Below are positions 35,149 to 37,804 of a DNA stretch of 64,000 bases, one piece after another. The position numbers and the translations under genes are program-made. The stretch spans positions 1-64,000 of the forward strand of contig QCKN01000004.1 in assembly GCA_003215295.1 (NCBI GenBank), read 5' to 3'. How positions within the stretch are numbered: position 1 is the stretch's first letter; the number at the start of each line of letters is the position of its first letter. This DNA comes from Prochlorococcus sp. AG-409-P03 (GTDB lineage: Bacteria > Cyanobacteriota > Cyanobacteriia > PCC-6307 > Cyanobiaceae). A model generated the notes under the pieces. The model was not told the DNA's origin. It saw nothing but the letters and a program-made list of their open reading frames with translations, and searched no databases.

Positions 35149-36306
35149 CTAAACCACGATTGAACGTCTTTGTGCCATTAGAGATATAAACCGAGCAAAG
35201 TGATGATCGGCATCATGCGGCCCAGGACTGGCTTCAGGGTGGTATTGAACACCAAAAATTGGTCTTTCAGAAACTTGTATTCCTGCAACAGTTTTGTCAT
35301 TGAGGTTGAAATGCGTCACAACCACCTTGCCTTTGGGTAATGATTCTGAGTCAAGTGCAAATCCATGATTTTGACTTGTAATTTCGAGACGTCCAGTAGT
35401 TCCACAGGGATGATTGAGGCCTCGATGTCCATATGGAAGCTTGAAAGTCTTTCCACCTAAAGCAAGTCCAAGAATCTGATGACCTAAACAAATCCCAAAC
35501 AAAGGTATATCTGTTTTGTTTATTAGCTCCTTTACAAGTGATATACCACTTGTAACTGCAGCAGGATCTCCAGGGCCATTTGAGAGGAAAACACCCTCTG
35601 GGCTAAGACTCATTACTGATGAGAAGTTTGAATCACATGGCAAAACACTAACTTCACATCCATAAGCCGTTAAACGCTCCAAAATAGATTTCTTAATTCC
35701 AAAATCAATTGCAACCACTTTGTAAGGCAATCCTGATACATGCTGGCTTTTAGTTCTACGGTCGAAATCAACTCTTGATAGAGAATGCCAAAAGTATTTT
35801 TTGTCCGTAGAAACCTGCTTTGCCAAATTCAAACCCTCCATATGTGGAAACCTCCTTAATTCCTTGAGAAGATCTAATGGAGATATGTTCTCTTTATTAG
35901 TTATTGCACCATTCATTGATCCAAAGTTACGCAAATGTCTAACAAGTGCTCTTGTATCTATTCCAGAGATTCCAACAACTTTATGTTTTAGAAGCCAACT
36001 TTCTAGAGGCTCCTCAGAACGCCAGTTACTGGGTTCTTTAGAAGTTTGCCTTACTATTACTCCCTTAACAGAAGGACATTTAGCCTCATTATCATCAGAA
36101 TTAATTCCTGTATTTCCTATTTCTGGGTAAGTAAAGGCTACAAATTGCCCATAATAGCTAGGGTCAGTTAAGACTTCTTGATAGCCTGTCATTCCTGTAT
36201 TAAATACCACTTCTCCGAAAACAGTGCCGCAATATCCAAAAGACTCTCCTTCAAGCAAAGTGCCATCTTCTAATACCAATAAAGCTTTCTTTGAGAGAGA
36301 GTACAT
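35149..36306 (-). CDS. carA: carbamoyl-phosphate synthase small subunit
   Basis: 385 residues. Glutamine amidotransferase half of carbamoyl-phosphate synthase, feeding arginine and pyrimidine synthesis. The N-terminal CPSase domain has [20 protein letters not shown]. The class I amidotransferase domain has the nucleophile C273 in [11 protein letters not shown] and the histidine/glutamate pair in [18 protein letters not shown] at 36306 gives the family start; a TTG three codons upstream is less likely. It lies 45 bases after trpD on the same strand. Confidence 0.96.
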
Positions 36307-36351
36307 AAGTTTCAAAAATAGAGAAATTGATTTTCTTGAATCCTATTATTT

Positions 36352-37383
36352 TTAATCAAGTGCAAGACGTAGTGCTTCCAAGCTCTTCCACGGACTACCA
36401 ACCTCTAACGAATTTAAAGCCTTAGTCGCTCCTAAACTAAAGTCATCTTCTAAGCCAGCTGCCCATAAAACCAAAGAAGTATTAAGGGCAACAACATGTT
36501 TTTGAGCAATAGTTCCACTCCCTTGAAGAGTAGAGGCAAGAATTCTTTTGTTTTCTGCAAGATCTCCCCCCCTAATAGCACTATTAGGAGCAGAAATTAA
36601 CCCAACTTCAGATGCACTAAGGAAAGAGGTTCTAACTTCACCATTTTCTAACAATCGTAACTCGTTTGAACCTTCAAGAGAAGCTTCATCTAACCCTCCT
36701 GCACCATGTACAACAATTGCTCTCTCAAGACCAAGTTGAAGTAGAGCATCTGCCATAGGGTTCAACAACTCAGCCTTGGCGACTCCCAGAACCTGTGCCT
36801 TTGGCCGGAGTGGATTGACTAATGGGCCCAAAAGATTAAAAACGGTTCTAACACCTAAGCTTTTTCTTAAAGGTGCCAAATTAATCAAAGAAGAATGCCA
36901 TGCAGGTGCAAAAAGGAATGTGACATTCACCTTCTCTACAGCACTGACAACATCTTCTAATGAGGCCTTAAGTTTAATTCCCATACCTTCAAGAACATCA
37001 GCAGAGCCAACTTTTCCACTTGCACTCCTATTGCCATGCTTTGCCACATAGGCTCCAGATGCAGCCGCAGAAAAGGCAACTGCAGTTGAGATATTGAAGG
37101 TGTCTGCGCCATCACCGCCAGTTCCACAAGTGTCAACCATATGAATTTCTGGGATTTCACACGGAAGGGAGCAGGCTTCCCTCAACACCGTTGCCATTGC
37201 CGAAAGCTCTTCACCGTTGACTCCTTTTGTTCTCAAAGCAGCTAAAAAAGCCCCCGTCTGAACTGCGGTCAACTCCTCCTTAAGCCAGGCCTGCATCAAG
37301 GCCGCTGCTTGAGAATGATTTAGAGCCTTCCCCGATAAAAGCATCTCAAGGGTTTCAGGCCAAGAAGAAGCACCAATAGACAT
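36352..37383 (-). CDS. trpD: anthranilate phosphoribosyltransferase
   Basis: 343 residues, second step of tryptophan synthesis: anthranilate plus PRPP. Visible marks are the PRPP site [17 protein letters not shown] (near 84-100), the [19 protein letters not shown] stretch (about 114-132) and the [19 protein letters not shown] block. ATG start at 37383. Its start lies only 7 bases from the end of a strong terminator hairpin (37391-37419), so expression may depend on read-through or a promoter inside the hairpin region. carA follows. Confidence 0.95.
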
Positions 37384-37390
37384 TTTTCAG

Positions 37391-37419
37391 AAAAAAACCC
37401 GGGTGCGTTGCACGCCGGG
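37391..37419 (-). terminator. GC-rich terminator or attenuator directly before trpD
   Basis: On the minus strand a 9-bp stem (CCGGG and GCAC arms with one bulged base, loop of three) is followed at once by seven T's (37397-37391). The T-run ends 7 bases before the trpD ATG. It is a convincing intrinsic terminator for the DUF3288 gene about 80 bases upstream, or an attenuator of trpD. A competing GGTGAT/ATCACC pairing lies just upstream. Confidence 0.75.
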
Positions 37420-37498
37420 CCAGGTGATGGGGACATATCTACTATCACCCAAAAAGTGCAAACTGGCGAGAATAAATAAAATTCTTTAGTGGATTATC

Positions 37499-37804
37499 TC
37501 AACCAGCTGCATCATCAGAAGTATCGAACCCAGAACCCACTCCATCTTCCTGTTGACTTCCAGGCCTATAACCAGATTGCCATATTTGACGGACTCGATT
37601 ATTCAAAGTGTCTCGACTTAATCCCCAAGCACTCAGAATCTTCTTCATATCTTCCTTTAGGTCATAAGCCCCAGGGAAACCTTCATATCTCAGAAAAAGT
37701 CGTGCCAAGTCCACTAAATCCGAATTCTCAGGAGAGTCTTTAACCAATAAACGATCAAGATTCTCACGATCAATAATGTAAAGAGGATGATTCTGTTCTT
37801 GCAT
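37499..37804 (-). CDS. DUF3288-family protein
   Basis: 101 residues. The pattern HPLYIIDRENLDRLLVKDSPENSDLVDLARLFLRYEGFPGAYDLKEDMKKIL with a following LSRDTLNNRVRQIWQSGYRP fits my memory of DUF3288, a small soluble cyanobacterial family of unknown role. The last ~20 residues are acidic and polar. ATG start. The gene heads the long minus-strand run that ends at dnaE and is separated from trpD by the terminator at 37391-37419. Confidence 0.65.
   Translation of the reverse strand: MQEQNHPLYIIDRENLDRLLVKDSPENSDLVDLARLFLRYEGFPGAYDLKEDMKKILSAWGLSRDTLNNRVRQIWQSGYRPGSQQEDGVGSGFDTSDDAAG

Follow-up and report, generated by a model that had tools for sequence, protein, structure and literature searches.

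The 64,000-nt stretch of Prochlorococcus DNA analysed here (the window) probably carries an intrinsic terminator inside the leader of its trpD-carA operon, with the two genes being expressed by read-through and a small RNA being released. At the centre of this reading stands a near-invariant 44-nt block upstream of trpD, composed of GUCCCCAUCACCYGG, a hairpin, and a U-tract. The anatomy of the block, its conservation, its linkage to trpD-carA, and the recurrence of its motif before other terminators are established by the observations below.

A conserved hairpin and promoter-like sequence ahead of trpD

On the minus strand, the 115-nt spacer between the DUF3288 gene and trpD (Table 1) contains, in this order, TCGCCA, 17 nt, GATAGT, 6 nt, GTCCCCATCACC, TGG, the stem, T7, and 7 nt, after which comes the ATG of trpD (37383-37381), whose position is backed by the N-terminal SWP stretch recognised by eye in relatives. 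A previous sequence-only reading of this DNA had pointed to a hairpin with a 9-bp stem and seven T's that ends 7 nt before this ATG; the structure is real, and its coordinates were confirmed. Positions 37419-37415 pair with 37402-37398 and 37413-37410 with 37406-37403, leaving C37414 as a bulge and 37409-37407 as the loop, and the seven T's occupy 37397-37391.

Table 1. Position of the trpD leader elements and neighbouring genes in the window
Feature	Positions	Strand	Remarks
carA	35149..36315	minus	TIGR01368, 483 bits; 36 nt downstream of trpD
trpD, anthranilate phosphoribosyltransferase	36352..37383	minus	NCBIfam TIGR01245, 356.9 bits (cut-off 199.05)
Predicted intrinsic-terminator hairpin with T7	37391..37421	minus	9 bp, one bulge; possible G-U extension to 37421
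Conserved unpaired motif GUCCCCAUCACC	37423..37434	minus	identity 0.87; predicted start near 37434
-10-like hexamer GATAGT of the inferred trpD promoter	37441..37446	minus	6 nt before the block
-35-like hexamer TCGCCA of the inferred trpD promoter	37464..37469	minus	17-nt spacer to the -10; identity 0.38
DUF3288 gene	37499..37804	minus	PF11691, 95.4 bits; upstream of trpD

Folding of the leader, which the same reading had proposed as a check, returned the 9-bp hairpin just as read from the sequence, and across 103 loci its median minimum free energy is -16.8 kcal/mol. Taken alone as proof of the hairpin, the energy test was unconvincing and was set aside (z -1.86 for an 86-nt stretch, with 12 of 200 shuffles equally good), and the trpD-proximal hairpin was absent from the output of a generic terminator scan. 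The hairpin is far above chance; conservation, and not fold energy, is decisive.

The comparison of the same spacer in other strains, likewise proposed earlier, bore this out, as the block is kept at 103 of 178 trpD loci, spread over 29 genera of a single cyanobacterial family. These loci are a non-random sample, made up of 30 plus 120 top-scoring places from 374 matching genomes out of 400, and of 28 further places from three genera; the window itself is one of them (L001), and duplicates (L031-L034, named Prochlorococcus records) as well as distant paralogues (L183-L184) were excluded. A block was scored as present when a 20-nt core differed by no more than 4 edits, which counts the degenerate copies L003 and L004. 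Calculated with one sequence per genus, mean pairwise identity amounts to 0.87 for the 12-nt motif, 0.81 for the hairpin with its T-run, and 0.75 for the -10 stretch (8 nt); it is 0.38-0.45 for the -35 stretch, the promoter spacer, and the discriminator, 0.40 upstream, 0.30 past the T-run, and 0.42 over the opening 60 nt of the matched trpD region. In an alignment of 72 of the 103 block sequences (A1, dereplicated at 0.93), 97.2% of the cells in the terminator hairpin are paired and one two-sided change occurs. Covariation, another of the checks suggested before, is thus uninformative for the terminator, which is near-invariant. Furthermore, anywhere from 1 to 173 nt (median 18) lie between the T-run and the furthest in-frame ATG or GTG, a variability which indicates that the hairpin has no fixed position relative to the start codon.

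The block criterion failed at the other 75 loci, including all those examined in g18 (16), g57 (11), g11 (11), and g10 (8), so that the block is dispensable for trpD; a few of these loci (e.g. L015, L048, and L038) retain a degenerate copy. Model R1, derived from the 72 sequences, matched 9 of 145 genomes that were drawn from the class (E <= 0.001, strict filters). All nine belong to the same family, of which the draw contained at least 14 members, and the matches comprise a degenerate trpD leader in G010 and places elsewhere in the genomes of G039 and G056. A near search of phages with the spacer gave no match. Scans of viral contigs (26 stretches; at least 120 stretches, with 80 loci among the matches listed) looked like chance; a loose energy threshold assigned a hairpin to at least 17 rows, and one of these, L396, is Prochlorococcus-like. 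This viral-labelled contig of 12,657 bases bears a motif-terminator module with hairpin letters identical to those of G109, and may represent host carry-over or a mobile element.

Upstream of the block, the -10 takes the forms GATAGT (75), GATATT (14), AATAGT (11), and AATTTA (1) in 101 located promoters, and it sits 6 nt ahead of the motif in 91 of them; the usual -10 was not found at 2 of the 103 block loci, both from g25. The -35-like hexamers chosen in the same 101 promoters, by a script that favoured this hexamer and spacer shape, were mostly TCGCCA (27), TGGTCA (17), and TGGCCA (16), with a spacer of 17 nt in 64 and of 18 nt in 28; conservation of the -35 stretch is poor. Of the 75 loci lacking the block, 34 show a -10-like hexamer no further than 120 nt from the matched trpD start, against 18.3 expected from shuffles. 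Such a hexamer occurs without the block at 8 of 8 loci in g5 and 5 of 6 in g53, and at none of the 16 g18 or 8 g10 block-negative loci. carA was present in the fetched trpD flank at all 58 loci tested. The promoter-like pair stops 6 nt short of the block, and some relatives retain the -10 where the hairpin is gone. The hairpin therefore most probably belongs to the 5′ leader of the trpD-carA operon, and the operon would be transcribed by read-through from a predicted start near 37434.

Copies of the motif elsewhere in these genomes

The 11-mer TCCCCATCACC gave 76 matches in 10 genomes against 5 for a reversed control, a count that overstates the non-coding family as it includes matches in long reading frames and, in each genome, one match at an apparent conserved gene end. 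Other matches fall in the trpD leader, in intergenic palindromes (type A), or immediately ahead of other terminators. The gene-end copies (L215, L252, L255, L256, L258, L260, L263, L270, L278, and L280), several of which read ..IPITLAS-stop by eye, are probably a coding coincidence.

In the same genomes, the tag CCCCAUCACCYRG also stands directly before unrelated terminators, where the reversed pattern scored 0, and this suggests a shared RNA-level function. After overlapping rows had been collapsed by hand, the motif-hairpin-T5 pattern was counted at 42 places, which are spread over 15 of 16 genomes and include 9 at trpD, with the reversed control at 0 in all 16; two of the non-trpD places are type A copies with a chance T-run. 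In a second set of 19 genomes, 11 had the pattern, at 17 places altogether (control 0); G024 and G101 belonged to both sets. No such module was found in five g10 and two g24 genomes, and the eight g10 loci and one g24 locus examined at trpD were also without the block. G151 and G094, which we take to be high-light Prochlorococcus, have modules and lack the block at trpD, and G101 and G024 have the trpD copy and no other clear module. Among the non-trpD modules the hairpin letters vary while the motif stays constant, and this favours a role of the motif itself at the RNA level. It is conceivable, though rather doubtful, that UCCCCAUCACCYRG 5′ of a terminator constitutes a general picocyanobacterial RNA module, a shared seed or binding site carried by several RNAs with different terminators, including the trpD-carA leader, and that one partner, RNA or protein, would thereby couple amino-acid and pyrimidine biosynthesis to a multi-copy ncRNA family.

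Multi-copy intergenic cassettes around TCCCCATCACC were seen at L281, L245, L246, L249, L250, L216, L264, and L283. They are laid out as a 5′ TCCCCATCACC, a body that varies and holds CACCAnATnTGGTG-like palindromes, and mostly a 3′ copy resembling CCCATCACC(Y)(R)G by a terminator. In some of them the 5′ TCCCCATCACC lies inside the palindrome CCGnnTGAT-CCCC-ATCAnnCGG; the terminator copy of L216 is on the opposite strand, and a clear 3′ copy was not seen in L250. Rfam gave no match at the cassettes in eight loci around them, and a Glutamine-II riboswitch (58.5 bits) occupies L264:119-176, in the same region as the cassette. At L213, L214, L216, L197, and L198, the opposite strand of the palindromic copy is GGCCGGGUGAUGGGGAUCAC or a close variant, and copies of this type precede a small membrane-protein gene that presumably resembles Ycf20/DUF565. 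By eye, L214 offers 18 nt complementary to the C-type trpD leader and is a candidate pairing partner. L186 and L188 have a hairpin, AGUGA-UGGGGA-UCACU, just past a reading frame and about 140 nt before the type A motif, whose loop is complementary by eye to the UCCCCA motif.

Probable read-through of the trpD leader and its alternatives

From the promoter-like sequence and the block we infer the start site, termination, read-through, and any trans role of the RNA in the following manner. RNA polymerase would start near 37434 from TCGCCA-17-GATAGT and make an initial product of about 44 nt, in which an unpaired GUCCCCAUCACCU is followed by the terminator. Counted from the motif, the predicted terminated transcript has a median length of about 44 nt (range 42-48, n=103), and the motif is predicted to be unpaired with a median probability of 0.99 (at 0.8 or above in 102 of 103). 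A share of the transcripts would stop at the hairpin, yielding the small RNA, and trpD and carA would be expressed from the read-through fraction, a layout of the sRNA/mRNA “actuaton” kind. As the leader shows neither an antiterminator fold in itself nor a leader peptide, regulated read-through would need an outside factor, either RNA or protein, that recognises the unpaired motif.

For trpD the sequence-only reading had offered an attenuator, transcription by read-through, or an internal start, and one of the first two is probably correct; what did not hold is the competing structure on which its attenuator was built. GGTGAT (37449-37444) and ATCACC (37428-37423) are both present and can pair in the window, and 83.1% of the aligned cells do pair, with four two-sided changes (reached by 14 of 500 shuffles). 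Yet 29 of the 72 aligned sequences break the first of the six pairs and 33 break the third, all six are intact at only 32 of 101 loci, and the GGTGAT arm shares GAT with the -10 and falls outside any RNA starting at 37434. Neither arm overlaps the terminator stem, so that “competing” is the wrong word, and the window leader, taken to 25 nt into trpD, folds at -17.0, or at -8.6 with the 3′ arm of the terminator barred, with no alternative fold of a strength near that of the terminator. We consequently rejected this pairing as an antiterminator, and attenuation by it is highly improbable. The earlier remark that no Trp-rich leader peptide was found stands, as a leader starting at 37434 has no ATG ahead of trpD; an ATG that overlaps the predicted start (37436-37434) is unconserved and opens a frame that by eye contains no TGG before the trpD start. 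Thus, neither a Trp-codon leader peptide nor a mutually exclusive antiterminator, as in a ribosome-mediated trp attenuator, was found. At their gathering score, Rfam covariance models detected only two tRNAs in the whole window and left the leader unmatched (sub-threshold matches of 17.8 and 14.7 bits against cut-offs of 50 and 61.1). The idea of a T-box, with UGG before CCCGG, was likewise discarded, as C replaces U in many relatives and Rfam gave no match.

Without a competing fold of similar strength, and with the GGTGAT/ATCACC pairing off the stem and often broken, either leaky termination or control by an outside factor is left. The latter could take the form of an attenuator acting in cis, in which a protein or sRNA binds UCCCCAUCACCYGG and the 5′ arm in the nascent leader, blocks the terminator, adjusts trpD-carA to a signal, and leaves the released RNA idle. 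A near-invariant unpaired motif that abuts the terminator on its 5′ side and extends to the 5′ arm would suit such binding, as would an operon holding two biosynthetic genes; on the other hand, the same motif is found ahead of terminators outside trpD, and the ligand or factor is hypothetical; we consider this a plausible but minority reading. A reading in which a transcription factor instead binds the conserved stretch as a DNA operator half-site at +1, with an incidental hairpin, is unlikely: the 11-mer does occur elsewhere within the imperfect palindrome described above, but the copies at trpD and at other terminators show by eye only its right half, and the hairpin is as conserved as the motif. 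The hairpin might also be the ordinary terminator of the DUF3288 gene, a common neighbour (found upstream of trpD at 47 of 58 loci tested) whose end on the same strand is 79 nt from the stem, with trpD transcribed from elsewhere. Against this, the block is retained at 8 of the 11 tested loci where DUF3288 was not found upstream, promoter-like sequence separates DUF3288 from the hairpin, and the window has no promoter-sized room between the hairpin and the trpD ATG; we hold this to be quite unlikely, and the hairpin may stop DUF3288 transcripts as a side effect. Altogether, we favour leaky termination within the trpD-carA leader over outside-factor control, and the released RNA may also act in trans.

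Relation to known RNAs and significance

In Synechocystis 6803 and 6714, an actuaton is a terminated sRNA that forms the 5′ part of a coding unit without a further start, and at least ten cases were derived from mapped starts (PMC5386190, in excerpt). The trpD leader is similar in that a promoter and a terminator, recognised by sequence and conservation, bracket a putative sRNA ahead of the gene, and it differs as a trpD-carA case in picocyanobacteria whose start and termination are predicted. A resemblance also exists to Yfr1, Yfr10, Yfr12, and Yfr18, short RNAs with a common conserved unpaired C/A-rich motif that in Yfr1 is followed by a terminator hairpin (PMC2518516 and PMC1242208, in excerpt). 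The trpD leader RNA shares this order of unpaired motif and terminator hairpin with Yfr1, whereas the motif itself is aCUCCUcACACAC in the Yfr family and UCCCCAUCACC in the trpD leader. Yfr1 is further defined by aCUCCUcACACAC between two stem-loops; by eye this motif is absent from the 44-nt RNA, which has a single hairpin. The places at 348934 and 936799 in G151 (taken as MED4) are not among the Yfr8-Yfr21 locations in the accessible part of Table 1 of PMC2518516.

Yfr103 is an abundant ncRNA of 290-328 nt, multi-copy in marine Synechococcus (seven paralogues in one strain, CC9605) and also occurring in Prochlorococcus, with an imperfect palindrome upstream of its start (PMC5069720, in excerpt). 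Going by that excerpt, length and copy number exclude Yfr103 as the trpD leader. The intergenic cassettes are possibly the Yfr103 family, and its upstream palindrome is possibly our type A repeat; G215 (taken as CC9605) has six type A copies where the excerpted text reports seven paralogues, but the lengths disagree. The trp attenuation systems of E. coli and B. subtilis likewise have a terminator in the leader of trp genes; unlike these, the trpD leader is devoid of a Trp-codon peptide and of a similarly strong alternative fold.

Transcription starts in MED4 and MIT9313 were reportedly treated by Voigt et al. 2014 (ISME J), and since a prior description in that study is possible and may pre-empt ours, we regard the terminated trpD leader as new only provisionally. 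A literature search by title and abstract start returned, among the papers listed, no description of it and no account of trp control in Prochlorococcus, and “trpD” is absent from the main text of PMC7368042 and PMC1242208.

According to PMC2518516 (in excerpt), Prochlorococcus has very few regulatory proteins. A near-invariant terminated trpD-carA leader, with a tag common to other terminated RNAs, would be a concrete control point; in many picocyanobacteria such a leader RNA appears to precede this gene pair, which serves the biosynthesis of tryptophan (trpD) and of pyrimidines and arginine (carA). The host cells are among the most numerous photosynthetic cells of the ocean, and their element-free relatives provide natural comparisons.
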